IMG/VR virus record: IMGVR_UViG_3300042864_000422 | Span: 1 to 43,185 of that record | Origin: a virus | Length of the DNA stretch: 43,185 bases | Reading direction: 5' to 3' (one strand) | Translations under genes and position numbers: made by a program | Notes under the pieces: generated by a model | Databases searched by the model: none | Told to the model about the DNA's origin: nothing | Seen by the model: the letters and a program-made list of their open reading frames with translations, nothing else | Shown here: positions 3,568 through 33,546 of the stretch, in pieces | Numbering within the stretch: the first letter of the stretch is position 1 | Layout: every line of letters begins with the position of its first letter

Positions 3568-5997
3568 ATGGCTTCTCCCTTTCAACGATACACAGGTGGC
3601 ATTGAGGCTTCTACTGGAAACCTCGTCCCTGCTTATAGCCAAATGGCAGAGCAGACCATCAAAGCCTATTCTAGTTTTGGTGAAAATATAGCCGAAGGCA
3701 TAAAAACTTATAACGAAAATTCGCAAAAATCTGAGGCGGCTAACGCTAAGATTCAGATGCTTGGTCAAGCCTACGCTGACAAGATAGCCATGTACAGCAA
3801 AGACCCAGAGATTGCCCAATCTGGTATCCTTGATAGTTTGATGGCTAAGGCTAAGATGCTTCAAGACGCACCCACCAAGGGTCTCAGTCAGCGAGTGATG
3901 ATTGCACACGAAGCGGAGACATCCCTTTCTGGTTTCGGAAACCAACTGCAAGAATGGTCGTTCCTCAGAGGTCGAGAAATGGAGCGAGTCACGCAACAAG
4001 GGCTTGACCAATTTGCTGGTGTCAAAACAGTCACAGACCCTAAGTTTACAAGAGAACTTAAATTAGACCCTAATAAGTCTTTACAACAGAATAAAGCCGA
4101 TGCATTGGCTTATCTAAACAAGGTCAGACAACTTAATCCTAAACTTGAGGGTAGCGATGAAGACTTCCTTGCCAGCGTTTTAAGCGGTTATGAGCAGACT
4201 GCTTCCAAGGCTGACTCTAGTCTTATCCCTGCGGCTGTCACTAGTTCCATTCTTGAGCAAATTGCGGCTGACAAACGACTGATTAAAAGTAATAAGGAGT
4301 CTCAAAAGACAGGTCTTATCGAGGACTTCCTAGCCAGAGGCAAGCAGTCTTCTAGGGCTGACTTTGAAAAGACCAACACAGCGGCAAGCGATGTTCTTAT
4401 TCCAAAAGCAGAAGCACCACAGGGGGTTGTTCCTGCTGGAATAACTGCTCCGTCTAGAGTTAGAAAACCTGTTTCTATTGAAGAAGCCAAAGCCGCTGGA
4501 GAAAAGGCTATTTCTCTTCAAAAAGACATTAATGCTCTTTTTGGAACAAGAAAGAACCTTGAGCCTTACGAGCAAAAAAGAAAAGATAAGATGCTTGCGG
4601 AAATTAAGTCTCTTAAGGAAACAGCCTCATCTGCTGGCGGCACATTTGCTGAAGCGTCTGCGGCTACGCAGATGACTGGAATTAACAAGGTCAGAACAAA
4701 GATTCAATCCATTGCTGACAAGTCTGAAATACAATATCTTTCAAAACTACAAGAAGAACTTCAGTCTGGTGGTTATATTGGATTCTTAGATAGAATGGCT
4801 CAATACGGACTTGGAGATGAAAAACTTCTCAAAGAAACAGAGGCTGGAATTTATTCCGACCCTATTTCTAGAACTGTTCCACAAAAAGCCATTGTTAAAG
4901 AACTTGCTAATATTGATAAGAGAAGGTCTGAACTAGATACTTTCGTTTCTAAACTTAGAGGAATTCAAGACTTGGGACTCACAGAAAGCGGTGCAGATAT
5001 TCTTCCAGACAGAAAACTTGCCATTCAAAAACTTCTCAAAGAAAGAATTGATGCACTTTCTAAGCCTAGAGCAGAGCCAGAAAAAGTTACACCCGAAAAG
5101 ATTAGAGAAATGGCTGGAAATGTTGTTGGAGCAAAGCCAGTTGCTCCACAAAAGCCTACAGTTCCCGTTCTTGAAGTCGGTGATGTCGTCCTTGGTAGCG
5201 TCACGGAAGAGCAGAGACTTGGAGTCAGAGAACGCCAAAAACAGGTCGCTGACTTTGTTACCAGCCGTATGGGTGCAATCGACCCAAATGACCCAGAGCG
5301 TAAGCGGAGACTGCCTGTCGCTGGCTTTGAGAAATTCTACCAGAGCCTTGTTCCAGAATCTGAAATTCGTGAATTCACAACAGATAGTGGAATCAGAATG
5401 TTACACGCTAACGGAAAATGGGAACAAATTAAGGCATCTCAGCCTATGACTCCCGCTGAAATGCGTAAGGCTAATCTCGGAGTCTTTGGCAAACAAACAG
5501 CAGACGGCAGACTTGTTCCGTCTGAGTTTATTCCAGACTCTGGCGTGTTTATCGGAGGCTTGTTTAATGGTTCTGATTCGGCTGTTGATAAGTATCAAGA
5601 GGAAATGCCTAAACTTATTGACGCAAAGAGAGGCATTAAGGAACTGAGGCGTATAAATGACCTTGTTGGTGAATCATTGATGCCTACAGAACGAGGCAAG
5701 GCGTTGGTTGAAGAAATGAACCTTTCTGCCATGCTCAGAACTGACATCGTTGGCGTTGGTACAGTTTCTAACTACGAACAAAAACTGATTAAGGATGTTA
5801 CTGAGAACGCTGTTAACTTCTTCTCTCTTGAAGCCAAGGATAGAGCCATCTTAATCGCTCTTGCTGAACGAGTTGACAGGCGTATCAAGAATCTATCTGC
5901 GGCTCATGGCTTGACAGTTATAATTAAAGATGACACAGGTGGTAACAAGTACCAAGCCCTTCGTGAGCAATATCTGAGGGAAAAGGGAATACTATAA
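3568..5997 (+). CDS. Internal virion (ejection) protein, T7 gp15-like
   Basis: An 809-residue, Lys/Glu/Ala-rich, mostly helical protein. The first about 180 residues resemble the N-terminal parts of podoviral internal virion protein C, and coiled-coil stretches rich in K, E and L fill residues about 300-510. No enzymatic motif is visible. Order and size (T7 gp15 is about 750 residues) support an ejectosome tube component between the gp14-like and giant gp16-like proteins. The middle (about 4480-5150) is richer in A and T and in AGA codons than its flanks, hinting at mosaic ancestry. The start is ATAATTTATGG, with no Shine-Dalgarno sequence. Confidence 0.65.
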   Translation: MASPFQRYTGGIEASTGNLVPAYSQMAEQTIKAYSSFGENIAEGIKTYNENSQKSEAANAKIQMLGQAYADKIAMYSKDPEIAQSGILDSLMAKAKMLQDAPTKGLSQRVMIAHEAETSLSGFGNQLQEWSFLRGREMERVTQQGLDQFAGVKTVTDPKFTRELKLDPNKSLQQNKADALAYLNKVRQLNPKLEGSDEDFLASVLSGYEQTASKADSSLIPAAVTSSILEQIAADKRLIKSNKESQKTGLIEDFLARGKQSSRADFEKTNTAASDVLIPKAEAPQGVVPAGITAPSRVRKPVSIEEAKAAGEKAISLQKDINALFGTRKNLEPYEQKRKDKMLAEIKSLKETASSAGGTFAEASAATQMTGINKVRTKIQSIADKSEIQYLSKLQEELQSGGYIGFLDRMAQYGLGDEKLLKETEAGIYSDPISRTVPQKAIVKELANIDKRRSELDTFVSKLRGIQDLGLTESGADILPDRKLAIQKLLKERIDALSKPRAEPEKVTPEKIREMAGNVVGAKPVAPQKPTVPVLEVGDVVLGSVTEEQRLGVRERQKQVADFVTSRMGAIDPNDPERKRRLPVAGFEKFYQSLVPESEIREFTTDSGIRMLHANGKWEQIKASQPMTPAEMRKANLGVFGKQTADGRLVPSEFIPDSGVFIGGLFNGSDSAVDKYQEEMPKLIDAKRGIKELRRINDLVGESLMPTERGKALVEEMNLSAMLRTDIVGVGTVSNYEQKLIKDVTENAVNFFSLEAKDRAILIALAERVDRRIKNLSAAHGLTVIIKDDTGGNKYQALREQYLREKGIL

Positions 5998-6001
5998 TTT
6001 T

Positions 6002-9000
6002 ATGGCTGAACTTTACGAATCCCCCAAGCAGTATATTTCCCTTGGAGGGCAATCTGGAACTGCATCTGATGCACCTCCCAGCATCGAAAGCATCATAGAT
6101 AGCCTTCCTGCGGACGAAAGGGAAGAGGCGTTAAAGTATATTACAGCCCCTCCTACTGGTGAGGAAGTAGCAAGAGCAATGGCTCAGAAGAACGCCAATG
6201 GCGAACTGATGGACATGACATTAGACCAATACAGACTGTTCAAGGCTCATCAAAAATCTAAGGAAACAGATGTCATCGGCACGATTGGCGAGGCGGCTAG
6301 CACAGTATTTGACGAGATTTTTAAGGCGGCTGGGTCTATCTATGACAAGCCCGTAGACTCGATGAAGAAACTTACGCCCTCTGTAATCGAGGCGTTTGCC
6401 CAAGGCACAAGAAACCTCTATGGAATGGCGGCTCAGTCTGCCGACCCTACTAGCGTATTCTTCCGAATGAAGAACGCCTTGTTAGCCAATGGCGATGACG
6501 AGGCGGCTGAGTACCAGCAGTTCATGGAGGCTCAAGCCTTCAATCTGCATTCGATGCGTCTGATGACTGGTCAAGATACCCTTGTCATGGACAAAGATGT
6601 CATCAACCCAGAGATGACACAGGTGATGTCCTACATCGCTGACCCTACCCTGTTTATCCCGTTCGGTGGGATTGCGGCTAAGGGTGCTACGATGATTGGC
6701 ATGGGCGAGAAGTTGGCTATGGCTTCTGCCCGTACTGCGGCTATCAAGCGTGGCATTATGGGTGGTGTTCTCAAGTGGGGCGTTGGTGCTCCCATTGAGT
6801 TCATGGGTACTGCCGTCAGAAATACGATTGATTATGGCTTAGAGCGTAGTGCCAAGGCTTTCGAGACTGTATCTGGTATCTCTGCCGCTGAGGTCAAGAC
6901 AACCGCACAGATGTACGGATGGACTTCTGCGACTGCGGCTATGACAGGTGCTACAATTCCCCTTCCTATTGTCGGGGATGTCGCTGGTGCGATGGTCGGC
7001 TCTACTACCGCCCGTGGCGTTGGTGAGGCTATCAGTATGTTTGGTGAGCAGATGCAAAAGCAGAAGAACACAGGTCGTGGCGTTCTTGGCTATGCTGGAC
7101 AGGCTCTTAGAGACACCAAGAAACAAGGCATCGTTCTCTCTAAACACGCCCAAGGACTGCTTAAGATTATTGAGGCTGTTGACCCGTTCTTCGCCTATGC
7201 CGATGAAATTACCTCTGGTGCTTTTCAAGGTGCGGCTATCGGTGGCGGTCTAGGTTATCTTGCTGGCGGTGAAGAAGGCATGGCTGGCGGTATCGGCTCT
7301 GGCATGGCACTCGGTGCTGTCGGTGCTGGTGCTGGCAGGCTTACCTCTGACATCACAGGCAACACGAAGATGGAGCAGATTGCCATCCAGCGTAAGTTGG
7401 TCATCGAAGGACTCAAGGACGCTGGCAATGAAAACCATGTGGCTCTTGAGGCTATGGCTATTGCGGCTGAGGCTACTGGAGATAGACGATTCCAAGCCCA
7501 GATTGATGGTATCATCGCTGGTCTGGATGTCGTGAACCCCGATGCGGTCATCAAGGCGTTTAACGAGAAAGGTTACGCTGAAGCGTTAACTAGCCAAGGA
7601 ATTGACCCCAGCACGGGCAAACTCAGAGAGAAGTCCAGAATCTTCCCCGAAATCGGAGACAGAAGAACCATCGCTGATGTCCTCGGCATCCTCAGAGACA
7701 ACGGAGGCAACTTCGCTGGAGACCCTGCTGGCTTTGAGAAGGCTATCACAACCGAAGCCAGATACAAGAAACTGAAGCCCGTCTGGGAGCGTCTGGATGA
7801 CAACGCCAAGGCTGTCCTGCTCAAGCAGATTAAGGAAAACAGCAACCCCGATTTCATCAAGTCCCTCAAGGGCAGACAGGTAAACGCTCACTTCGGTGAC
7901 CTCGCCTATGCCGAAAGATTGGCTGAGATGATTAACACCCTTAACCAGAAGAACGCTAATCTCGTCTCTGGTAAGATTGCTGAGACCCTCAAGGCTGAGA
8001 CACGCTCCGACAAGAAACTGACCCGCAGAGGTCAGATGCTTAAGGAGAAACTCCAAGCGGACGGATACATCGACAAGGATGGCACAATCAGAAAGTCTCG
8101 CAACATGGATGTCGAAGAGACGCTTCAATCGTTTGACGCTTCCGCTGGTTGGACTAAGCGTAGGAACTCTACTGGTCAGACTGAAATCTACATCAACCTA
8201 GATAAGTTCATGGCTAAGGGCAATCGTGAGTCGATGCCCCACGAACTCTTCCACTCCGTGATGAGAGACTCTGTGTTCGCTAAGGACTACTCCGACAGAC
8301 TCATCCAGAAACTTGTCGGCACATTTGACCCTCAGACTGGCAAGATGCTTGAGAAGGCTGTCGTTGACCCGACCCAACTCCAGAAGTTCATGGAAGGCTA
8401 TATCAACAGCGTCCATAGAAACCAAAGCGAAGAATTCCGTAAACGCAAGATTGATGAACTCAAGGGTTCTATCGAGGAATACAAGAAGCGTAACGACCCT
8501 AATCGTGTCGCTGACACTACCCAGACACCGCTTGAGCATCTAGTTGAGGAGTTCGGTGCTTACTATTTTGCCAAGTTCGTGATGGACAAGCCCGTGGACT
8601 TCCTGTTCAGAGGTGGCGAATACAGCGGACTCAGAGCCGTCTTTGAGACCTCCAAGGAGTCGTTCCTCGACTTCTGGAAGGCTAAGATTGGCAAGAACAA
8701 CCCGTCCGTCAATTTCGACAACATCGAGGGATATGCCCTGTCCAGAGGATTTGGCAAAGACGGCAAGAGAGCCAAGGTAACAGCCCTAGACCTCTTGATG
8801 CAGGACATGATTCGGATGCAGTCTAACATCAACAAGGGTGGCAAGTTCGACATCAGCAACCTCTCCCCCGATGCCCGTAAGCAGTTCATCCAGACGCATG
8901 GTCTGCGTGGACAGGGCTTTGAGACCATCGACAAGGCTGGCAACTTAAAGAAGCCTAAACTCCGCAGATACACAGCCGAAGAAATCCGACAGGGCAAGGA

Positions 9001-12000
9001 GATGTTCAAGGTTCTAGACTCCCTTTCTGATGCTGACCACAGGGGCGGTATGCGTAGGGATGGTGACGGCAACTGGTCTGGCAAGCCCAACACGGCTCAG
9101 ATGAACGCCCTTGTGGGTACAGGTTACCTCCAGAGAGCGTGGTTCGACAGACTTACAGCCGCCTATAACATCCTTGAAGGCAAGGGTTCTAATGTGGTCG
9201 AGTTCGGCTACCTTGGTTACTCTGCCCACATTGGTGACGGCAACGAGCGTGTCTATGGTGCGGCTGTGCCGTTCAAGAACAGACGGGCTGTACTTCTTGA
9301 TGTGAACTTCAAGGTCAAAGCCGATGGTACGACCTTCGCTAACTTTGACACCCTTGACCTCAGAGTCATCGAGGCTAGAGGCAACGAGGTCTGGCGTGAC
9401 CCTCAAGTCCGTGACCTCTGGAACGGAGACAGAACAAGCATGGAGGCTGACTTCTACGCCTACCTCAGCAACGCCTCCCTTCCGTCTGGAGACCCTAACC
9501 GCAAGCCCTCCTTCCGTCTTCTTGACAGGGGTGACGGCTTAGGCGGTCAGCGTAGAGATGCCCTGCACCAGATGCTTGGATTCCACAAGGGTTCTGACCT
9601 CCCGTACATCAACAAGCCCATCGCTGAGATTCCTGTCGGCATCCGACACAGCGTTACGACCTTCAGCAATGACGGCATCGTGGCTATGCGTACCGCTGGC
9701 AGGGAGCGTGTGGACTACAACCACAACAACGCCCACCTAGACCTCACCCGCAACTTCATGCCAGATGAGATGAGGCAGGAGACTACTCCCTCTGGTGGCA
9801 AGATAATCCGTCACGCTACGGGCTATAACATCAGCAAACAGGCTGGCGAAAAGTTCAAGGTGTTCGACCCAGAGGGCAAGTCGCTTGGTCAATTCGATAC
9901 AATCGCTGACGCTGGTCGTGCGGCTCAAAAACACTTCAATGAATCCTTCGACAAGAGCGTTGAGGGTAAAGACACCGCTGTGCCTCCGACTGAAATTCCT
10001 CCGTCAAGAGTTGGATACAAAGATAAGCGTGTTCAAAAGATTTTAGATGATAATAAAATTGAACAAAGTGTAATAGAAGCATTAGAAAAACAAATAAACG
10101 ATATAAACTCAAAAGAGAATCAAGCAGAGTCTGCGAGCAATTATTACTCAAGACCATCTAAAGATGCTTTAGAAGTAGTTAAAAAAGAAGGTTTAATAAA
10201 GGCATTACGCAATGAAAATGTAAGTTCTATTTTAGAACAAGTTAAAATTAAACCAGATGTTTCTTCTTTAGGTGATATTGACATAGGAATACCTCATTAT
10301 GCAAAAGATTTAAAAGTTTCTTATTTGTTAGATAAGTTAACAAATTTATCACATCACGAATATGACGCAATGTATCCGATGGAAATCAAGTCTGCCCTGC
10401 ACCCCAGACTTGCCCAAATTTTCCAAGACTACCCTAACCTCACAGCCCAAGGTCTTCTCAAGAAGTTAGTCGTGTACGGCTCGCAGGGTAGCAGAATGTT
10501 CCAAGAAGCCACGGAGATTGGTCTTGTTGACTTGTTGAAGTCCAAGATTCAGAAGACCACTACGCCTAGATTCCTTGAAGATGGCACACGGATTGACATG
10601 GCACAGGGCGTTACTCAGCCTAAGTTAGACATGACCGAAATCCTAGACTTCGCTAAGTCCAAGGAAATCAAGGTAACTATTGAAGAGGGTGCTAAGGAAA
10701 GAAGTGGAATGGACACCTCTAGGTTCACCCTTGGCGGTGCTAAGGATAACTACAAGCAGACGGCAATTAGAATCAATCCAGAGTACGCTCACGGCATCCG
10801 TGGTCACTACGGAGAAGATACTATTGTTCACTTCCGAACCACGGAGCGTATTGACGCTGACGGCAACAGACACCTGTTCATCGAAGAAGTACAGGCTAAT
10901 AATACGGATAAAAGAAAAGTATCTGGAAGACTTACTCCAGATAGAGAATTTATAGTTAGAAGAAATGTAAGAACTCAAAAAACACTTTATAACAAAGCAA
11001 GAGAAGAAGGAATTTATGTACAAAACAGCAATGGAGAAGGTTTTGAGACTCAAAAAACTGCGTACATAAAAGCAGGGTTATGGAATAGCGAAAAATTAAA
11101 TTCTGAAATAACATTATTGTTAAAAGAAATATTCCCGTCTCAAGGTTATGATGCCGCTATGTCAAGACAAGATGCGAGGAAAGTTTTACAGGAAGGGTTA
11201 GACCATGTGTTTACCATGATAGGTACAGCAACAAGTTTTAGCGATTTCTTAAATAGACTTGAAGCAGAAACAGAATCAGTTTTTGACAAACATTTTAAAG
11301 TTTGGAAAAAGTTACGACTTAGCGATGAATTGTTAAATCAATTTAATACAATAAAAAAGTTTGAAGTCGAACGGCAGAAATTTTACCGAACAGAAGGAAT
11401 TCAAAGTCTTATAGATGAAGGACACATAACTAATTATACTTTAGACAATCCAGACATTATGCTTGAATCTATTCAAGACAATGAGTCGTTGATTCAATTG
11501 CATGAATTAAGTTTAAGTCAAAAAGAGCCTACTCCTTTGCCGCTTACTGCCGCTAAGGACTGGACGCTCACAGGACTCAAGGGAATCATCAGACAGGCTA
11601 TCCGTGACGGCTTAGATAGGATTACGCTAACGCACCCCGATGACAGCCCTACTGTCTCGCACATGAAAGGCGATGCCAGACAGGGACTCTACGGCAAGTT
11701 AATCCCAGAAATCTGGGGTGCTTGGCTTCGCAAGTACGGGATTGAGATGAAGCAGACTAACAAGTTGGCTGACGCTACCATTGATACCGCCAAGGGTCAG
11801 ATGGCTGAGATTACCAACAAGTTGCACGATGCTAATAAGGCAGTACTTGAACACTTTGAACAGGTCAAGGGTAGTGAAGACCCTGCGACCATCAACAAAC
11901 TTGCTGAGTTAATGGCAATGCCCGTGCATGAGTCTGACGAATTCGTTGGTGTAAAAATCCAAAATGAGGCTAAAAATCTTAACGATAACAAACTGAGAAC

Positions 12001-15000
12001 GCTTATCGGTGAAGTTGCAATGATAAAGTCTGCCGAAAAGGATGCTTACAACAGAATTAATAAACTTCGTGAGAATGGTATCCGTGGCGAAATCGGCTCA
12101 ATGTCTACTACAGACTCTGGTATTTCCGCTGAGGCTATCGACAGAGGCATGACCTTTGTCCTCAATGACCGCATCAAGCAAGACTTCCTAGACGGCAAGA
12201 TACAGACGCACATGATGCCTTCGGAGGGTGAAAAAGGCGGTTTTGATTTTGAACCAAACAGCAACAAGGCTTATAAACTGTTAACTGAATATCTATACGG
12301 ATTAAAGACGGGCAAGTCTCATCAAGAGATGATGACTCCAGAATTAGATTATGTCTTTAACAACATAGAGAATTTCACAAAAGCAAGCAACGATGATGTT
12401 GTTGAGGCTATCTTAAAACTTGGAAGCAAGGGTGGTGCTATTGTTGACAGATTTCAGAACAAAGAAATCACATTAAAGCAAGCCGTTCAAGAGGCACAAA
12501 ACATCGACCAATATACATACCTTGCAAAACTGAAAGACATTAGAGACGCAAGAAAAGGTTTATACAATGCGTTCATGCGAGCGACTGGTCAGATGCGTAA
12601 GATTTCTGACAAGGATGGAAGACGCTACAATACAGAAGGAGAAAGAGAGCATAGAGATACTGCATATCAGCCAGCGGAAATTCCATTAGAGGCTCATCAA
12701 AAGCCTTGGAGTGGAAATAAGTTTGTCCTTATTGATGTTAAGAAGTTTAATGACGAATTCCAAAGAACTAATCCTTCTAATACAGTAAGAGATGTAAAGA
12801 ATCAAAAGCCTAATAGCCTTGCTAATGCTACTAAGTGGATTCAAGAAAGACCTTGGGAAAGAAAAAATAACCGAGAGATGGCTGAAGCCCCAGTCGTGTC
12901 GGTATTCCCAGAAAAGACTTTTATTGAAGGACAAGGTGCTGTTAATCAAGTTCGTGTTTCCAATGGAAGACACAGGCTTCAAGCCTATGAAGACCTTGGC
13001 ATTAAATACGCTTGGGTTCAGACACCAATCAAGGAAGAAGGAAGACTTAATCAATTCAGAGTTTCAGAAGAAGATACGGGCAGAGAAAATCGTCCCAACT
13101 TCATGCCAGCGGAGGGCGATGCTGAGGGTGGTCGTACTTACACGCCAGAGCAGATGTCTGGTAAATTTATTGGTCGCTATGCTTCTGAAAATCCTAAAGC
13201 AATAAAATATAAAAAGATTATATTCACCAAGGATACTGAAAAAGGAAGATTTGGAGAAGAGACATATAGGCTTACTATTAAACCAAAGGATGAAGTTGCA
13301 AATGAAGTTAAGGTAGGATATATAAATGTTGAAGTCAATGGAACTGATGCGTCTGTTGAATATGTAAAAGTAAATCCTAGATGGGAAGGCGAAGGATACG
13401 GGAATCTTCTTTACTCTGAAATGGTTGAGCGTCTTCGCTCCCTTGGCGTAAAAGAATTCAGCGGAATGATTGTCGATGAATCTGGAAGACCTCAGAAGAT
13501 TCGCAAAAGAATCATTGACCAAGAAAACACTAGGATTGGAGAGCCAGATGACACTCTTATTGGAAGAACAAGAAGGGATAGGTATGGCGATACGCAGACA
13601 GATGTCACTTCTTACTTGAAGGAAAAGGCTTGGTATATGCCTTCTGAGTCTTGGGAAAAGACAAGGGAACTGGGAATGAAGTCTACTTGGGATGCTCTTC
13701 CAGAAGCATCTAGAAAACTGTTTGAACTTAACATTAAGAAGTTTGGACTTACAAACAGTCCGTATGAGGCTGGCTATATATTGCCAGACGCAAGAATGCT
13801 CGACTTCTCTGGACGCTCACAAAGTTCTGGGTTCAAGAGAGTAAACGACAAATACATTCCCACCACAAAGTTTGATGACTTCAAGAATTCAAGAGGCTTA
13901 GACCATAGAGAAGCCGTAATGCTTCCAGAGGTTAAGAGAAAAATGAAGGAAGAGTATGGCTGGGAAGAAGACAAGATTGGCAAAATGCAAGAGGCTGGTG
14001 CTATCCGCATAGACCACAATGATTATGGCACAGATGACGGACGCACTTATTTAGACATAGGTTCTGTTCCTACAAACAAACAGTATGAGGCTATCTTAGA
14101 TATCCTTAAAAATAGCGTTAAAAACAAAGAAAAGCATACGCTAGGCGTAGACATAAGAGTAAACGGAAAGGCAATAAACCATCCTTTACATGATGTGAAT
14201 TTAGAAAATCCAGAAAGGGCTGTTCTTGCTCTTAAGCGTGAAGTCAACAAGGCGTTCAAGAACAACGAGGCTGGTAAAGACAGAACATCTTTCATGCCAG
14301 CGGAAGGCGAGCAGGGCGAACCCATCAGACTCTCTGGTAAGAAGAAGACCATCAGCACAAAAAAGGTCAGCACAAATCAGTACGAGATGGGTGAAGGCAA
14401 CAGAACCTATGATACAGATAGCCGTCAATGGACTAATGGCTTCATTGGCAGATATGCTGAGGAGAACCCTATCCTTACGAAAGGTTTGAAACTCAGCATG
14501 AAGAACTGGGATAAGAGAACCGATGATTATGGAAGACGCTCTATTGAGTTAAAGGAAGGAAACAAACTTATCGGCAGAATAGATTACGAAGTTAAGAAGG
14601 GTAGCGGAGGTAAGTGGTTGCTTTCTGACCCTGCGGTTCGTGTATGGGAACAGTACAGGGGCAAGGGATACTCTAATCTTCTTTACTCTGAAATGGCTGA
14701 ACGGGCGAGGTTCTTAGGGGCTGAAGACTTCCTTCAGAGAATTGAAAACGACTTAGCACTTCCTATGTACGCTCAAGTCAATACCTTTGGCTTTGGAGAG
14801 TCTAAGTTAATTGATGCAGATAGGGGTCAGTATTTCCCGCCCACAAAGGAAAACTTCGACAAACTCAAAAAGCCTTTAATCGATATTCAGAAACAGGATG
14901 GCTCTTATGAGACAATGGAAGGCTATGAGCCTTGGGTTCACTCTTGGAGCAAGATATTCTCTGATAGACATTATCAGCCCGCTGAAGGCTGGCGTGACTG

Positions 15001-15172
15001 GCAATCTGAACGCACCTCGCTTGGCTCTGTGGTCAAGAACGCTGTCGGCTATGTCATCATGGTGCAGGGCGATAAGTTCAAGGTCTACAACCCCTACAAG
15101 GCTATGGTCGGCATCTACAACGACCTAGAGCAAGCCAAGCGGAGAGTCCAAAGGGACGAGCCTAAGCAATGA
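6002..15172 (+). CDS. Giant polyvalent virion protein at the gp16 position (zincin, ParB-like and two GNAT domains)
   Basis: A 3,056-residue protein, over twice the length of T7 gp16, ending the ejection-protein row. Visible modules: Gly/Ala-rich, probably membrane-active segments near residues 215-235 and 405-445; a zincin-type HELFH motif at 747-751 with a further acidic pair E849-E850; a ParB-like segment around 2310-2345 with NGRHRL at 2321; GNAT acetyltransferase motifs R-x-x-G-x-G at 2460 and Q-x-x-G-x-G at 2884; and two related GY-x-I...KFKV..P segments near 1275-1315 and 3008-3050. Seven [FMY]-x-P-x-E motifs (about 1252, 2071, 2222, 2367, 2545, 2764, 2991) separate modules. This is the architecture of phage polyvalent proteins, which are injected with the DNA and act against host defences or remodel the cell. 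Domain identities rest on motifs only. Two AT-rich islands (about 10018-10378 and 10900-11530) look like inserted domains. Confidence 0.8.
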   Translation: MAELYESPKQYISLGGQSGTASDAPPSIESIIDSLPADEREEALKYITAPPTGEEVARAMAQKNANGELMDMTLDQYRLFKAHQKSKETDVIGTIGEAASTVFDEIFKAAGSIYDKPVDSMKKLTPSVIEAFAQGTRNLYGMAAQSADPTSVFFRMKNALLANGDDEAAEYQQFMEAQAFNLHSMRLMTGQDTLVMDKDVINPEMTQVMSYIADPTLFIPFGGIAAKGATMIGMGEKLAMASARTAAIKRGIMGGVLKWGVGAPIEFMGTAVRNTIDYGLERSAKAFETVSGISAAEVKTTAQMYGWTSATAAMTGATIPLPIVGDVAGAMVGSTTARGVGEAISMFGEQMQKQKNTGRGVLGYAGQALRDTKKQGIVLSKHAQGLLKIIEAVDPFFAYADEITSGAFQGAAIGGGLGYLAGGEEGMAGGIGSGMALGAVGAGAGRLTSDITGNTKMEQIAIQRKLVIEGLKDAGNENHVALEAMAIAAEATGDRRFQAQIDGIIAGLDVVNPDAVIKAFNEKGYAEALTSQGIDPSTGKLREKSRIFPEIGDRRTIADVLGILRDNGGNFAGDPAGFEKAITTEARYKKLKPVWERLDDNAKAVLLKQIKENSNPDFIKSLKGRQVNAHFGDLAYAERLAEMINTLNQKNANLVSGKIAETLKAETRSDKKLTRRGQMLKEKLQADGYIDKDGTIRKSRNMDVEETLQSFDASAGWTKRRNSTGQTEIYINLDKFMAKGNRESMPHELFHSVMRDSVFAKDYSDRLIQKLVGTFDPQTGKMLEKAVVDPTQLQKFMEGYINSVHRNQSEEFRKRKIDELKGSIEEYKKRNDPNRVADTTQTPLEHLVEEFGAYYFAKFVMDKPVDFLFRGGEYSGLRAVFETSKESFLDFWKAKIGKNNPSVNFDNIEGYALSRGFGKDGKRAKVTALDLLMQDMIRMQSNINKGGKFDISNLSPDARKQFIQTHGLRGQGFETIDKAGNLKKPKLRRYTAEEIRQGKEMFKVLDSLSDADHRGGMRRDGDGNWSGKPNTAQMNALVGTGYLQRAWFDRLTAAYNILEGKGSNVVEFGYLGYSAHIGDGNERVYGAAVPFKNRRAVLLDVNFKVKADGTTFANFDTLDLRVIEARGNEVWRDPQVRDLWNGDRTSMEADFYAYLSNASLPSGDPNRKPSFRLLDRGDGLGGQRRDALHQMLGFHKGSDLPYINKPIAEIPVGIRHSVTTFSNDGIVAMRTAGRERVDYNHNNAHLDLTRNFMPDEMRQETTPSGGKIIRHATGYNISKQAGEKFKVFDPEGKSLGQFDTIADAGRAAQKHFNESFDKSVEGKDTAVPPTEIPPSRVGYKDKRVQKILDDNKIEQSVIEALEKQINDINSKENQAESASNYYSRPSKDALEVVKKEGLIKALRNENVSSILEQVKIKPDVSSLGDIDIGIPHYAKDLKVSYLLDKLTNLSHHEYDAMYPMEIKSALHPRLAQIFQDYPNLTAQGLLKKLVVYGSQGSRMFQEATEIGLVDLLKSKIQKTTTPRFLEDGTRIDMAQGVTQPKLDMTEILDFAKSKEIKVTIEEGAKERSGMDTSRFTLGGAKDNYKQTAIRINPEYAHGIRGHYGEDTIVHFRTTERIDADGNRHLFIEEVQANNTDKRKVSGRLTPDREFIVRRNVRTQKTLYNKAREEGIYVQNSNGEGFETQKTAYIKAGLWNSEKLNSEITLLLKEIFPSQGYDAAMSRQDARKVLQEGLDHVFTMIGTATSFSDFLNRLEAETESVFDKHFKVWKKLRLSDELLNQFNTIKKFEVERQKFYRTEGIQSLIDEGHITNYTLDNPDIMLESIQDNESLIQLHELSLSQKEPTPLPLTAAKDWTLTGLKGIIRQAIRDGLDRITLTHPDDSPTVSHMKGDARQGLYGKLIPEIWGAWLRKYGIEMKQTNKLADATIDTAKGQMAEITNKLHDANKAVLEHFEQVKGSEDPATINKLAELMAMPVHESDEFVGVKIQNEAKNLNDNKLRTLIGEVAMIKSAEKDAYNRINKLRENGIRGEIGSMSTTDSGISAEAIDRGMTFVLNDRIKQDFLDGKIQTHMMPSEGEKGGFDFEPNSNKAYKLLTEYLYGLKTGKSHQEMMTPELDYVFNNIENFTKASNDDVVEAILKLGSKGGAIVDRFQNKEITLKQAVQEAQNIDQYTYLAKLKDIRDARKGLYNAFMRATGQMRKISDKDGRRYNTEGEREHRDTAYQPAEIPLEAHQKPWSGNKFVLIDVKKFNDEFQRTNPSNTVRDVKNQKPNSLANATKWIQERPWERKNNREMAEAPVVSVFPEKTFIEGQGAVNQVRVSNGRHRLQAYEDLGIKYAWVQTPIKEEGRLNQFRVSEEDTGRENRPNFMPAEGDAEGGRTYTPEQMSGKFIGRYASENPKAIKYKKIIFTKDTEKGRFGEETYRLTIKPKDEVANEVKVGYINVEVNGTDASVEYVKVNPRWEGEGYGNLLYSEMVERLRSLGVKEFSGMIVDESGRPQKIRKRIIDQENTRIGEPDDTLIGRTRRDRYGDTQTDVTSYLKEKAWYMPSESWEKTRELGMKSTWDALPEASRKLFELNIKKFGLTNSPYEAGYILPDARMLDFSGRSQSSGFKRVNDKYIPTTKFDDFKNSRGLDHREAVMLPEVKRKMKEEYGWEEDKIGKMQEAGAIRIDHNDYGTDDGRTYLDIGSVPTNKQYEAILDILKNSVKNKEKHTLGVDIRVNGKAINHPLHDVNLENPERAVLALKREVNKAFKNNEAGKDRTSFMPAEGEQGEPIRLSGKKKTISTKKVSTNQYEMGEGNRTYDTDSRQWTNGFIGRYAEENPILTKGLKLSMKNWDKRTDDYGRRSIELKEGNKLIGRIDYEVKKGSGGKWLLSDPAVRVWEQYRGKGYSNLLYSEMAERARFLGAEDFLQRIENDLALPMYAQVNTFGFGESKLIDADRGQYFPPTKENFDKLKKPLIDIQKQDGSYETMEGYEPWVHSWSKIFSDRHYQPAEGWRDWQSERTSLGSVVKNAVGYVIMVQGDKFKVYNPYKAMVGIYNDLEQAKRRVQRDEPKQ

Positions 15173-28285: not shown

Positions 28286-28589
28286 TTTAGGGAAAGTAGA
28301 CTGAGAAAGAGCGTGAGGGTTTTTAGACCCTGCACATACGATGGAAAGACTTTTTACGACAGGCTCAACTGCTTTTATCAAGAACCTTTACGCAGTAGTA
28401 ACGCTAATGGTCTTTATAAGTTTACCTCAGTTTATAATATTATAATAGAATTATAAATAACCAGCCGTGGTTTATTATAGAATTATAAAAGCACAGTAGA
28501 ATCTAGATTTAGAATCCTAATCCCGTTAACCTAACCTGTGATTCCGTGATTAGAAAACAGGTAGCAGGCTTCGTGCCAAGACCCTATAC

Positions 28590-28676
28590 ACAATTGTAAA
28601 TAAGATGTAAAAATGCAAAGAGCCTCTACAATCGATTCTAAGGTGGGGGTATCAAGAGCCTATACCTACCCCTAGG
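28590..28676. repeat. Intergenic long repeat, copy 1
   Basis: Begins ACAATTGTAAATAAGATGTA, then further on CGATTCTAAGGTGGGGGTAT and a CTATACCTACCCCTA end. Copy 2 at 28951 has the same order of words with diverged spacers. On the minus strand this copy reads TTTACA, 17 bases, TATAGG, a plausible leftward promoter. Confidence 0.6.
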
Positions 28677-28950
28677 CTGACCCTTGCAAGAGCCTTGTAG
28701 GGCAACTGTGCAAGAAGTTGTAAAGCGTTGTAAATCAACGACTTGCAAACGATAGTGAACATCCGTTCAATCAAGCACAAAATAGGGGGTCAGAGACTGC
28801 TATAAGCAATCCTAATGCCCCGTGTAGAATCTCTAATCATAGGTCTGTCAAGTAGGATTCGGACTCTAATCCTGTAATCCTAACTAAAGATATAATGATA
28901 AGTAGATGACTAATGATAACAGGATTCGGGCTGGATAGAATCATTCCAGC

Positions 28951-29041
28951 CAATTGTAAAAAAGATGTCAAATCAACGCTAAGGGGTCTGGCTTCGATTC
29001 TAAGGGGGGTATGTGCAAAGGGTATATCTACCCCTTCACCC
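28951..29041. repeat. Intergenic long repeat, copy 2
   Basis: Begins CCAATTGTAAAAAAGATGTC, then TCGATTCTAAGGGGGGTATG, and ends in GGTATATCTACCCCT. The conserved words are CAATTGTAAA, AAGATGT, CGATTCTAAGG and GGGGTAT. On the minus strand it carries TTGACA in the position of TTTACA of copy 1. A diverged third fragment may lie at 32437-32467. Confidence 0.6.
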
Positions 29042-29222
29042 CTACCTGTAAAGGGCTTGTACACCCCAAAGAATGTGAGACTGAGAAACACACGAAAACC
29101 CCAATAAAAAGGGGTCTATTCTCAATAAGGTGAGACAAGCAAATTCTGCGTCTAAATAGCAAATAAACCTCAATCCTGTAAAGAGACTTGGCACGCTCTC
29201 TGCTATGCGGGCGGGTGCGTTC

Positions 29223-29308
29223 ACTCCAAGGGCGAAGGCTCTGGAAATAAAATGCAGAAATCTGAAAATAGAACTTGAATCGGTAATACACCTGTCCCAC
29301 CTTGGAGT
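29223..29308 (+). other. Long stem-loop candidate upstream of the rightward operon
   Basis: ACTCCAAGG (29223-29231) and CCTTGGAGT (29300-29308) are perfect 9-base inverted repeats enclosing 68 bases. With the hairpins at about 29337 and 29365-29381 (GCGGGC/GCCCGC) they form a row of structures before the ribozyme, suggesting a long folded leader RNA. Confidence 0.4.
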
Positions 29309-29364
29309 CCTGTTCTTCGTCAATCGGTTCTCTCCTCCCGCCCTGCGGGATGGTCGCACAAGAT

Positions 29365-29381
29365 GCGGGCAACTCGCCCGC
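29365..29381 (+). other. GC-rich hairpin in the upstream leader
   Basis: A perfect 6-bp stem GCGGGC/GCCCGC with loop AACTC. No T-run follows, so it is more likely RNA structure than a terminator. Confidence 0.4.
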
Positions 29382-29583
29382 CAGCCAGATGCGTAAAGAT
29401 TCGATACAGAACTCGGTTCATTGAAATTCTACTGTAGGAAGCCCCAGCCCCAGAAGGGCATCGGCATTAATTCCTAAACGACAATCCAGCGTGTGCTAGG
29501 CTGATATATTCCCCGCACGATGGCAGACATTCAGAAACCTAGAAACCTACGGGTAAGAGATTCTAGATTCGTGAATCAACAAA

Positions 29584-29652
29584 GGACGAAACACGGGGGT
29601 AGGTGAAAATCCCACCCCCTTGTCCGTAGGTTACGCCTACGCTGACGAGTCC
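29584..29652 (+). ncRNA. Type II hammerhead ribozyme
   Basis: All core residues are present in the order of a type II (open stem II) hammerhead. GGAC (29584-29587) and GTCC (29649-29652) form stem II. GAA plus A15.1 (29588-29591) precede stem III, where 29591-29600 pairs with 29614-29623 at nine of ten positions, closed by a loop holding GGTGAAAATCC. The cleavage triplet is GTC (C17 at 29624). Stem I is CGTAGG/CCTACG (29625-29630 with 29636-29641) with loop TTACG, followed by the core CTGACGA (29642-29648). Self-cleavage is predicted between 29624 and 29625, about 76 bases before the first gene of the rightward operon, leaving a 5'-OH leader. Confidence 0.85.
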
Positions 29653-29700: not shown

Positions 29701-30006
29701 ATGCACACCGCCGACAAAATGAAACAGGAATTCCGTGTGAGGCAGTTCGCCTCGCTGGACTTCCGTGGTCAACGCTCCGAATGGATTCAAGCGTACTACA
29801 GCAACCTCTTCGACCTCTGGGAGAACCCGCCCTGCGACTACAACTTCAACACGGACGAACTGCTCGCTGAGGCTCGCTGGAAGGTCGAGGACTACGCTGA
29901 GTCCAAAGGCTGGTATCTCGAAAGGGATTCCAAGTGGCAAGTTGCGATGGAGTCTGACGGAGAAATTCACGCTCCGCACGACAAGCACGGAACGCTCTTC
30001 GCCTAA
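29701..30006 (+). CDS. Small acidic unknown protein, first of the rightward operon
   Basis: A 101-residue protein from ATG 29701; the frame is open back to 29620 but that would put the hammerhead core inside coding sequence. It contains FRVRQFASLDFRGQRSEWIQ and a helical AEARWKVEDYAESKG. The leader is a run of AAAACC-like words (CCAAAAACCAATG) without a Shine-Dalgarno sequence. Codons are strongly C-ending compared with the virion genes. No family recognised. Confidence 0.55.
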   Translation: MHTADKMKQEFRVRQFASLDFRGQRSEWIQAYYSNLFDLWENPPCDYNFNTDELLAEARWKVEDYAESKGWYLERDSKWQVAMESDGEIHAPHDKHGTLFA

Positions 30007-30061
30007 TCCTGCATCCAAATTCTAACTACAATTCCCCCCAACCCAAAACCAAAACACAGAT

Positions 30062-30925
30062 ATGAAAATCCAAATCGAAGAAAACGAAACCAAGGTGACG
30101 GACAACCCGTTCTACCAAGTCACGCAGGAGCGTCTCCACCTCCCCGATGGCACGCCCACCCCGTTCTACGGCAATGTCCGCAAGGACACGGGCGTGTGCC
30201 TCAAGGCTGTCACGGAGTCCTACACCATCGTGCAGAACCAAGACCTCATCGAGAAGGCTGAGTCCATCTTCGACACGAAGGGGATGAAGTTCACCCGCAA
30301 GTTCGATGTCACGCAGGACGGCTCTCGGATGTACGCCAACTACACCTTCGCCAATCACGGATTCAAGGTGCAGAAGGATGACTTCCAGATGCGTGTCTCG
30401 ATTCGCAATTCCTTCGATGGCTCGATGAAGGTCAGCCTTGTCGTGGGACTCCTGCGGGTCGTGTGCAGTAACGGAGCGTGGTCGATGGATGGCGGTATCG
30501 ACTTGATGCGGAAGCACACGGCTTCCGTGGATGTCGAGTTCGCCTCCAACGCTGTCGATGTCGCTGTCCGCAACTTCCAATCGCAGTACGACACGCTCGA
30601 CCTCTTCAGTCGCACGAAACTCAATCAGCAGGAAGGTCACGAACTGCTGAATGGTCTGGTGAAGCGTAGCGTTCTCGCTGACAGGGTCGCTGACAAGGTT
30701 CGTGAAATCTGGGAGAAGCCCACTTACGAGCAAGACCGCCAGAGGAATGTCTACAACCTCTGGAACGCTATCACTCAGCACACCACGCACGAGGTCGATG
30801 GTGTCCGCAGGAAGGTGGAACTCGCTACCCGCCTGTCCACCAACGCCACGATGGTTCTGGCTGACCACGCTCGCAAGGGTCGCATCAGCGACCTCTTCGT
30901 CAAGGAACTCCAGAAGAACAACTAA
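30062..30925 (+). CDS. DUF932 family protein
   Basis: A 287-residue protein with the DUF932 layout: PTPFYGNVRKDTG near the start, AVTESYTIVQNQDLIEKAES, ANYTFANHGFKV, a conserved SLVVGLLRVVCSNGAWSMDG and a helical C-terminal half (LVKRSVLADRVADKVREIWE, then VYNLWNAITQHTTH). DUF932 proteins occur in phages and plasmids, often near DNA metabolism or anti-defence genes; their activity is unknown. The leader is A/C-rich (AAACACAGATATG) and preceded by a partial copy of the intergenic cassette. Confidence 0.8.
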   Translation: MKIQIEENETKVTDNPFYQVTQERLHLPDGTPTPFYGNVRKDTGVCLKAVTESYTIVQNQDLIEKAESIFDTKGMKFTRKFDVTQDGSRMYANYTFANHGFKVQKDDFQMRVSIRNSFDGSMKVSLVVGLLRVVCSNGAWSMDGGIDLMRKHTASVDVEFASNAVDVAVRNFQSQYDTLDLFSRTKLNQQEGHELLNGLVKRSVLADRVADKVREIWEKPTYEQDRQRNVYNLWNAITQHTTHEVDGVRRKVELATRLSTNATMVLADHARKGRISDLFVKELQKNN

Positions 30926-30978: not shown

Positions 30979-31004
30979 CAAATCCTAACTACAAAAATCC
31001 TATG
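30979..31004 (+). repeat. Stop-start cassette, copy 1
   Basis: The word CAAATCC followed by TAACTACAAAAATCCTATG runs into the start codon of 31002-31331. The same block recurs before the next three genes with almost no change. It replaces a Shine-Dalgarno leader. Confidence 0.7.
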
Positions 31005-31341: not shown

Positions 31342-31362
31342 CAAATCCTAACTACAAAAATG
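31342..31362 (+). repeat. Stop-start cassette, copy 2 (short form)
   Basis: CAAATCC followed by TAACTACAAAAATG, lacking the second TCCT of the other copies, leading into the ATG at 31360. Confidence 0.65.
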
Positions 31363-31650
31363 GACTACCCGTCTCTCAACCACCTGTCGGAAGAACAAAT
31401 CCAGATTCTAAAAACCACCTGCGAAGGTGGGACGCTGGAAACGATGAACACAGTTATGTCTGGTTTCGCTTCGTGGGGTCACGCCTCCTTCCTCGCCAAC
31501 GAGGTCGTGCGTCTTGCCCTTGAACTTGAATCCAGAAACAAAGCCAAATCGCAACTGCACTCTGAGGTCGTAGACCTCCTCCATCGTCTCAAGAAAAAGG
31601 AGGAAGAAATCCTCTACCTCATCGCCAACCTCCCCGTATCAAAATCCTAA
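31360..31650 (+). CDS. Small helical protein, unknown function
   Basis: A 96-residue protein from ATG 31360, set by the cassette; the frame upstream overlaps the previous gene. Helical, with a possible coiled coil at the end (HSEVVDLLHRLKKKEEEILY). Its stop codon TAA is supplied by the next cassette. Confidence 0.55.
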   Translation: MDYPSLNHLSEEQIQILKTTCEGGTLETMNTVMSGFASWGHASFLANEVVRLALELESRNKAKSQLHSEVVDLLHRLKKKEEEILYLIANLPVSKS

Positions 31651-31666
31651 CTACAAAAATCCTATG
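31641..31666 (+). repeat. Stop-start cassette, copy 3
   Basis: AAAATCC then TAACTACAAAAATCCTATG. The TAA ends gene 31360-31650 and the ATG starts gene 31664-31885, so one block punctuates both genes. Confidence 0.7.
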
Positions 31667-31885
31667 ACCGCATCCGAATATCACCGACTCCTCCTCGCCC
31701 GTCTCAATCGCAATGCCAAGCACAGCCTTCATATGGCTGACGAGGCTGGAAAGCGAGGAGACACGAATGAGGAGGCTTGGTGGCGTGACCAACTCGCCCG
31801 TGATATGTGGGCTGAAGAGATGGCGTACCAACTCGACCCACAATGGTTCATTGTCAATCGAGCCGTATACAAAACCAAATCCTAA
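31664..31885 (+). CDS. Small Arg/Trp-rich helical protein
   Basis: A 73-residue protein (LLLARLNRNAKHSLHMADEA, then EEAWWRDQLARDMWAEEMAY). Both its start and stop lie in cassette copies. No family recognised. Confidence 0.55.
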   Translation: MTASEYHRLLLARLNRNAKHSLHMADEAGKRGDTNEEAWWRDQLARDMWAEEMAYQLDPQWFIVNRAVYKTKS

Positions 31886-31901
31886 CTACAAAAATCCTAT
31901 G
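31876..31901 (+). repeat. Stop-start cassette, copy 4
   Basis: CAAATCC then TAACTACAAAAATCCTATG. The TAA ends 31664-31885 and the ATG starts 31899-32228. Identical to copy 1 over the whole block. Confidence 0.7.
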
Positions 31902-32400: not shown

Positions 32401-32570
32401 CCGATTAGACCCGCCTCCGTGACCCTGTGAGCCTGTATAGAGCCTTTGCCTATACCCTAGCCTACCCCAGCCCATCAAAAGGCTTCCTAGGGCATCCTAG
32501 ACCCCTTCCCCGACTACTGACCACCTGTTCACTACCTACCTAATTCGGCTTTTTACCTTCTTTTTACAAT

Positions 32571-32602
32571 CAGAGCCTTTTAGGTTTATAATTATATAAT
32601 AA
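32571..32602 (+). repeat. AT-rich repeat, copy 1
   Basis: CAGAGCCTTTTAGG followed by TTTATAATTATATAATAA. The AT core is identical to copy 2 at 32696. Possible DNA-unwinding or promoter array. Confidence 0.6.
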
Positions 32603-32695
32603 CTATATAAGAGATGGGTAACAGCACACAGGCTACAAATATAATAACTCTTTTATAATTCTATAATAATCTTTTTATAATCTTATTATATAACC

Positions 32696-32726
32696 TCAGC
32701 CTTTTTACTTTATAATTATATAATAA
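32696..32726 (+). repeat. AT-rich repeat, copy 2
   Basis: TCAGCCTTTTTAC followed by TTTATAATTATATAATAA. A related word (CTCAGTTTATAATATTATAA) is at 28426-28445 in the other gene-free region. Confidence 0.6.
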
Positions 32727-32730
32727 ACAC

Positions 32731-33102: not shown

Positions 33103-33174
33103 GCCTTGATAGCACAATGGTAGTGCATCAGTTTTGTAAACTGAGGGTTGTCGGTTCAAGTCCGACTCAAGGCT
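33103..33174 (+). tRNA. tRNA-Thr (TGT)
   Basis: Complete cloverleaf: acceptor GCCTTGA/TCAAGGC fully paired, D-arm GCAC/GTGC, anticodon stem TCAGT/ACTGA with loop TTTGTAA (anticodon TGT, reads ACA), T-arm GTCGG TTCAAGT CCGAC. Discriminator T; CCA not encoded. Confidence 0.95.
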
Positions 33175-33229
33175 CGCTTTAGTACCACCCCGCCCTCTCT
33201 ACGATGGTTTCTCTGGGGTGGTCGTTTTA

Positions 33230-33301
33230 CGACCCGTAGTTCAACGGATAGAACACCCGCCTTCTAAGCGGGTTATCTAGGTTCGATTCCTAGCGGGTCG
33301 A
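33230..33301 (+). tRNA. tRNA-Arg (TCT)
   Basis: Acceptor CGACCCG/CGGGTCG, D-arm GTTC/GAAC, anticodon stem CCCGC/GCGGG with loop CTTCTAA (anticodon TCT, reads AGA), T-arm CTAGG TTCGATT CCTAG. Discriminator A; CCA not encoded. AGA codons are common in the virion genes. Confidence 0.95.
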
Positions 33302-33306
33302 TTCTC

Positions 33307-33377
33307 AGTCTTGTGGTGTAATGGTAGCACGGGAGATTTTGGTTCTCTCTGTCTAGGTTCAAGTCCTAGCAAGACTA
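33307..33377 (+). tRNA. tRNA-Gln (TTG)
   Basis: Acceptor AGTCTTG/CAAGACT, anticodon stem GGAGA/TCTCT with loop TTTTGGT (anticodon TTG, reads CAA), T-arm CTAGG TTCAAGT CCTAG. Discriminator A; no encoded CCA. Starts 5 bases after tRNA-Arg. Confidence 0.93.
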
Positions 33378-33380
33378 TTT

Positions 33381-33464
33381 GCTGAAGTGGTGGAATGGTA
33401 TACACGACTGACTTAAAATCAGTTGCCCAACGGCTTGCGGGTTCAAGTCCCGCCCTCAGCACCA
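33381..33464 (+). tRNA. tRNA-Leu (TAA)
   Basis: Long variable arm typical of tRNA-Leu. Acceptor GCTGAAG/CCTCAGC with one A-C mismatch, anticodon stem ACTGA/TCAGT with loop CTTAAAA (anticodon TAA, reads TTA), T-arm GCGGG TTCAAGT CCCGC. It alone in the cluster encodes a 3' CCA (33462-33464), suggesting a separate origin. Confidence 0.93.
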
Positions 33465-33469
33465 CTTAC

Positions 33470-33542
33470 GGGGGTGTAGTTCAAAGGTAAGAACACTCTG
33501 CTCATAACGGAAGAAACGCTGGTTCAAATCCAGCCGCCCCCA
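33470..33542 (+). tRNA. tRNA with CAT anticodon (Met or Ile2)
   Basis: Acceptor GGGGGTG/CGCCCCC, D-arm GTTC/GAAC, anticodon loop CTCATAA on a stem with four good pairs, T-arm GCTGG TTCAAAT CCAGC, discriminator A, followed by CCT not CCA. The first acceptor pair is G-C and three G-C pairs are missing from the anticodon stem, so it is not an initiator. Elongator Met versus lysidine-modified Ile cannot be told from sequence by eye. Confidence 0.85.
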
Positions 33543-33546
33543 CCTT

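Follow-up and report, generated by a model that had tools for sequence, protein, structure and literature searches.

A type II hammerhead ribozyme predicted to trim the leader of a phage operon

The window analyzed here, a 43,185-nucleotide stretch of viral DNA (IMG/VR record IMGVR_UViG_3300042864_000422), contains on its plus strand, at 29584-29652, a segment that, judged by its sequence, is a complete type II hammerhead ribozyme (HHR) and very probably a cleaving one. The reading that we prefer, with a probability of about 65%, is that this ribozyme trims the leader of a rightward operon, so that the operon mRNA begins at a fixed 5'-OH end with a hairpin. The relevant features of the window are the following.

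28563-28579, minus strand: divergent sigma54-like promoter toward the leftward genes (motif match)
29188-29204, plus strand: sigma54-like promoter TTGGCACG-CTCT-CTGCT (exact motif match; start expected near 29216)
29205-29583, plus strand: non-coding leader, predicted to be cut off (conserved in kin)
29584-29652, plus strand: type II HHR, whole (descriptor scan; covariance model built without kin, 59.4 bits)
29584-29587, plus strand: 3' strand of stem II, GGAC, open stem (pairs with 29649-29652)
29588-29590, plus strand: core G12-A13-A14 (invariant in kin and in 60 viral HHRs)
29591-29623, plus strand: stem III hairpin, A15.1 to U16.1 (break after a short basal helix)
29624, plus strand: C17, predicted cleavage 3' of this base (from its place in the hammerhead scheme)
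29625-29641, plus strand: stem I hairpin CGUAGG-UUACG-CCUACG, predicted to lie flush at the new 5'-OH end
29642-29648, plus strand: core CUGACGA (kin differ at N7 only)
29649-29652, plus strand: 5' strand of stem II, GUCC
29701-30006, plus strand: first gene 3' of the ribozyme, 101 aa, no family (window and L054 only)
30062-30925, plus strand: DUF932 protein gene (Pfam PF06067, E=5.1e-20)

The HHR reads GGAC GAA ACACGGGGGTAGGTGAAAATCCCACCCCCTTGT C^CGTAGGTTACGCCTACG CTGACGA GTCC, with the predicted cut at the caret, and its elements follow each other in the order GGAC, GAAA, stem III hairpin, UC, stem I hairpin, CUGACGA and GUCC. The catalytic core is complete (CUGACGA, GAAA, and U29623 C29624 as the UH before the cut), stem II is open, and stems I and III are closed by loops, as in type II. 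Stem III has ten positions with one mismatch, namely, the pairs A-U, C-G and A-U, a C.U mismatch, five G-C pairs and one U-A pair. All elements listed in the preliminary description (GGAC, GAAA, stem III, GTC, stem I, CTGACGA and GTCC) were found where it had placed them, and its assignment to type II, the predicted cut after 29624 and the location in the leader of a rightward operon are backed by the sequence, by covariation and by kin phages. A terminator-like match on the minus strand over stem III shows no clear excess over shuffles and was discarded.

A loose descriptor, applied to both strands of the entire window, matched this segment only, and no further type I, II or III HHR was detected; 300 dinucleotide shuffles of the whole window yielded 51 loose matches in total, with a match as good in 0/300. 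The cmscan search of the window against Rfam reported no hammerhead, whether run at the gathering score or with E<=10, and the HHR does not reach the RF02276 cut-off of 37 bits, a score that is a library cut-off and not a property of the class. The same model exceeded its cut-off in one of 20 viral records that were chosen for obvious HHRs, and cmscan gave no HHR in a second set of 20 HHR loci. Because RF02276 misses most of the clear viral HHRs of this shape, the silence of Rfam is not evidence against the HHR. The preliminary description had proposed the Rfam hammerhead II search as a check, with the lack of a hit to count against the ribozyme; taken literally, this was the outcome, yet it is uninformative, and a purpose-built model does match.

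A pattern scan of IMG/VR (GGACGAAA, GTC and CTGANGAGTCC, with free gaps) retrieved at least 119 stretches. Among the matches listed, stems I and III are complementary in 117 of 120 loci; stem I is mostly 17 nt long with a UNANG loop, which the UUACG of the window fits. The covariance model R1, aligned from 60 viral type II HHRs of other phages, with the window and its kin left out, matches the window HHR over model positions 1-57 of 57 with 59.4 bits (E=2.6e-18), the core identity within the training set being there by construction because the retrieval pattern was copied from the core of the window, so that only loop I, by its shape, and stems I and III, by their complementarity, contribute independent information to R1. 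The training sequences had been filtered for pairing, and pair counts in their alignment lean that way. The second-best place in the window scores 14 bits. A pseudoknot between loop I and the tail is common, not defining, in type II hammerheads; in the window, the loop UUACG has no 3-bp complement in the tail GCAGUCACAG that follows stem II, and this pseudoknot is also missing in half of the viral HHR set.

An HHR is present at the same place in L054 (identical to that of the window), L077, L009, L027, L113, L099, L095, L175 and L233. Over the eight distinct HHR sequences of the kin, all stem cells are paired (104/104), and six of the 13 stem pairs have changed on both sides with pairing kept. 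The covariation score of this alignment was reached in 0 of 500 shuffles, and sliding the partners against each other abolishes the pairing. The double changes are confined to stem I, with compensation at four of six pairs, and stem II, which occurs as GGAC/GUCC, AGGC/GCCU and GGGC/GCCC; the three basal pairs of stem III never vary, and the catalytic core is invariant across the eight sequences apart from N7. At the level of sequence, selection for a folded RNA is shown by the invariant core and by the compensation within stems I and II.

The HHR starts 380 nt 3' of the sigma54-like site at 29188-29204. The motif TTGGCACG-N4-YTGCW has exactly two occurrences in the window, vs 0.01 expected by chance (shuffles, both strands), and the sites at 29188-29204 and 28563-28579 look like divergent sigma54 promoters. 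The divergent motifs border a non-coding region of ~600 nt and are kept in kin and in some ribozyme-less relatives. A sigma54-like site lies 174-380 nt 5' of the HHR in all type II kin whose sequence extends far enough upstream, with both the -24 and the -12 boxes kept, a variable spacer and, in L175, one C to T change; L207 has such a site as well. L154 has the sigma54-like site and no HHR, and because relatives of this kind exist, the ribozyme step seems to be dispensable in the wider family. No gene for a sigma54 activator was found among the proteins scanned. Two 76% copies of TCGATTCTAAGG...GGGGGTAT...CTACCCCT, at 28632-28673 and 28994-29035, lie between the divergent promoters and may be where a sigma54 activator binds. 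A sigma70-type promoter in the leader was considered and rejected, the one weak match (28913-28941) being fewer than shuffles give. AT-rich repeats (TTATAATATTATAATAGAATTATAA) flank the leader and the operon in inverted orientation (28430-28496 and 32562-32728) and include perfect inverted copies at 28472-28491 and 32650-32669.

The predicted cut lies 76 nt 5' of the ATG of the first gene (29701). In the other kin, the DUF932 gene comes first after the HHR; in the window and L054, the single 101-aa gene lies between. Among the relatives found through the terminase that have DUF932 in the examined stretch, seven of nine carry a type II HHR and one more (L207) a type I HHR, counts that do not represent independent events because the phages are related. 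None of the longer terminase-found loci without DUF932 has an HHR, nor was one seen in DUF932 loci that are more distant, in which the gene is often inside an operon or behind another leader. A Shine-Dalgarno-like motif is located within 30 nt 3' of 169 of the 208 viral type II HHRs listed (81%), vs 29% at random places; it is absent 3' of the window HHR, and the leaders of the window are A/C-rich. The sequence AATCCTAACTACAAAAAT recurs just 5' of four consecutive start codons (30981-30998, 31344-31361, 31643-31660 and 31878-31895), with a variant near 30015-30031, and is also present in kin; these repeats are perhaps an initiation signal of a non-Shine-Dalgarno kind. Five tRNA genes (Thr, Arg, Gln, Leu, Met) at 33103-33544 separate the DUF932 operon from the terminase, with a similar arrangement in relatives.

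Under the preferred reading, RNA polymerase would initiate at about 29216, at the putative sigma54-type promoter, and produce a non-coding leader of ~410 nt. As it emerges, the RNA would fold as a hammerhead and, as the sequence strongly suggests, cut itself between C29624 and C29625. The leader would depart with a 2',3'-cyclic phosphate just 3' of the stem III hairpin, and the operon mRNA would begin with a 5'-OH and the flush 6-bp stem I hairpin, after which come A/C-rich sequence and the ATG (29701); it can be deduced that a type II cut leaves each new end with a hairpin, stem III for the upstream piece and stem I for the downstream piece. The mRNA would thus have a single fixed start, whatever lies upstream, and, by general knowledge and by analogy to the engineered insulator RiboJ, the 5'-OH and the terminal hairpin would probably slow decay that depends on the 5' end. 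In E. coli, the average effect of RiboJ is an approximately twofold increase in mRNA (PMC6206723). Like RiboJ, the window HHR is a hammerhead in a 5' leader that would, upon its predicted cleavage, remove the upstream RNA and leave the mRNA with a hairpin close to its new 5' end; unlike the window HHR, in which stem I itself would be the 5' hairpin, RiboJ combines the ribozyme of the plant satellite RNA sTRSV with an added hairpin (PMC6206723). The placement between promoter and first gene that insulation implies is clear on the side of the gene and given by a motif match on the side of the promoter, and action as a RiboJ-like insulator is the best reading of the window HHR. Among the roles in an operon leader that had been suggested before, trimming to a new, protected mRNA 5' end is the best supported, by position and by the conservation of an HHR, of type II or type I, in front of the same operon.

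Two contigs, L207 and L226, bear on the generality of this arrangement. In L207, TerL identity is 76%, and the order of the elements is kept (sigma54-like site, leader, DUF932, tRNAs, terminase), with a type I hammerhead directly 5' of the DUF932 gene (L207:3639-3708; ATG at 3743). It reads CCAC CTGATGA GTCC-TAGAC-GGAC GAA ACAGAG...CTCTGT A^GTGG and is the only type I match in the 2.0 Mb scanned; because the two contigs are identical at this site, L207 and L226 count as one lineage. The type I model RF00163 gives 12.6 bits in the record of L207, under its cut-off of 34. The element resides in a matching leader and has the same GUCC/GGAC stem II as the window HHR, and differs from it in the permuted order, with stem I open and stems II and III closed. 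Given that a type I HHR occupies this site in L207/L226, it is cleavage at this place in the operon leader, rather than a single topology, that appears to be conserved. Cleavage of the type I element, predicted between 3704 and 3705, would leave no stem I hairpin at the 5' end, and such a hairpin is, for this reason, not essential everywhere.

An alternative to mRNA trimming is that the upstream piece is the wanted product, an independently acting leader RNA of ~410 nt (~29216-29624) whose exact 3' end is set by the ribozyme. This agrees with the considerable length of the leader, with the sigma54-like start at 29188-29204 and with the near-identity of the last ~180 nt 5' of the HHR in the window, L077 and L009, a part that is more conserved than the sequence farther upstream. 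However, L099, L095 and L175 keep the HHR even though their leader just 5' of it is largely unrelated, no Rfam family matched, and a conserved fold of the leader (29205-29583) was not found: only two of 90 predicted pairs are doubly compensated and the covariation term is nil, in an alignment with little variation. We consider this explanation unlikely; the processed ncRNA from 29.2-29.6 kb that was suggested earlier is possible, and the sigma54-like site would start it at ~29216, with no conserved fold found for it. A BLAST search of the leader against named phages gave no match.

The HHR might also be regulated, with cleavage being conditional rather than constitutive as the leader switches from the hammerhead to a competing fold and back. 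In all eight kin, as in the window, stem III is broken by a mismatch, a bulge or an internal loop after a short basal helix, which has three pairs in most kin and five in L233; three or fewer basal pairs are found in 14 of the 202 other viral HHRs among the matches listed. Because stem III is interrupted, the hammerhead fold in the window group (window and kin) is 0-2.4 kcal/mol less stable than the competitor, the isolated window HHR being at 2.4 kcal/mol with tertiary contacts excluded from the calculation; at least 90% of the other viral HHRs among the matches listed have the hammerhead as their minimum-energy fold. Against a switch, the competing fold partly depends on N7=C, which varies in kin, and there is no evident ligand-binding domain. 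The cut site has a perfect 7-nt complement upstream (29546-29552), which initially speaks for a switch but is not kept where stem I changes (L027, L113, L099), and was rejected in this role. Conditional cleavage accordingly seems quite improbable to us.

Still less probable is a third alternative, in which the HHR is mainly a recombination seam, that is, a relic or neutral sequence whose conserved core serves as short homology for the exchange of gene cassettes. The similarity between the window and its kin does stop at the 3' edge of the HHR, the TerL proteins of the window and L009 are 99% identical as compared to 38% for DUF932, and the HHR of L099 has its 5' half in common with L113 and its 3' half in common with L027. 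Yet, the compensation in both stem I and stem II and the invariance of the core imply selection for a folded RNA, and replacement by a type I HHR at the same place is not expected of a neutral seam. Similar modularity is seen in the viral set, where, among the matches listed, nine pairs of HHRs share stem III with clearly different stems I and 33 pairs show the converse; identical stem I pairs number 19, vs 0.2 expected under independence of columns. Reassortment of halves at the cut site was observed in L099, L113, L027, L044, L042, L019, L032, L086 and others, and also within one genome. A tentative and rather doubtful extension of the preferred reading is that selection in this phage group maintains self-cutting in front of the operon, by type II in most lineages and by type I in one, and that the ribozyme doubles as a joint for cassette swaps and a punctuation mark of the mRNA. 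In this extension, the halves of a type II HHR would be freely exchangeable because each is a self-contained hairpin and the stem II that joins them (GGAC/GUCC) is near-universal.

Chance resemblance to the hammerhead consensus, for which the missing Rfam match might speak, is refuted by the shuffles (0/300), by the match to the independent model (E=2.6e-18) and by the covariation in kin, and its probability is negligible. Formation of circular RNA from paired ribozymes was likewise rejected, the phage having a single HHR copy.

Type II HHRs in phages, gene-flanking clusters of HHRs and the idea that they process transcripts were published in 2011 (Perreault et al., PMC3088659); related phage and prophage HHRs cleave in vitro, and an Agrobacterium HHR does so also in E. 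coli (PMC3088659). The window HHR resembles those described (PMC3088659; RF02276) in the open stem II, the closed stems I and III and the full CUGANGA/GAAA/UH core, as well as in the phage location ahead of a gene and the proposed role in processing of long transcripts (PMC3088659). It departs from them (PMC3088659; RF02276) in the missing pseudoknot between loop I and the tail, the 6-bp stem I with a five-base UNANG loop, the 4-bp stem II, the break in stem III after three pairs and the silence of RF02276. The window HHR thus belongs to a kind known since 2011, while the swap of topology and the swapping of halves look new: in the open-access literature, we came across no description of a site at which type I and type II are swapped, of a phage with 10-13 copies or of half-swaps. 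The best match of the major head protein of the window to a phage is 33.5% identical (phage C75C1). In the structural region, a single ORF of 3056 codons extends over 6002-15172.

The locus offers a clean test of what hammerheads do in bacteria and phages, a question since 2011, with one ribozyme, one strong promoter candidate and one operon, and with sister phages that have the same, a permuted or no ribozyme. Furthermore, a very common viral form escapes the Rfam type II model, and surveys that rely on RF02276 therefore undercount phage ribozymes. Among the matches listed, some phages have 10-13 HHR copies, one before nearly each gene, and operons punctuated by ribozymes are a testable idea. 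Among the matches listed, L124 (G006:C1:19000-33000), G049, G018, G046 and L125 have 13, 13, 11, 10 and 7 type II HHRs, respectively, and in these phages the HHRs sit just 5' of the ribosome-binding site of nearly each gene. One phage contig with type II hammerheads also encodes, at L066:745-803 on the minus strand, a ribozyme of the Rfam Twister-P5 family (45.2 bits).
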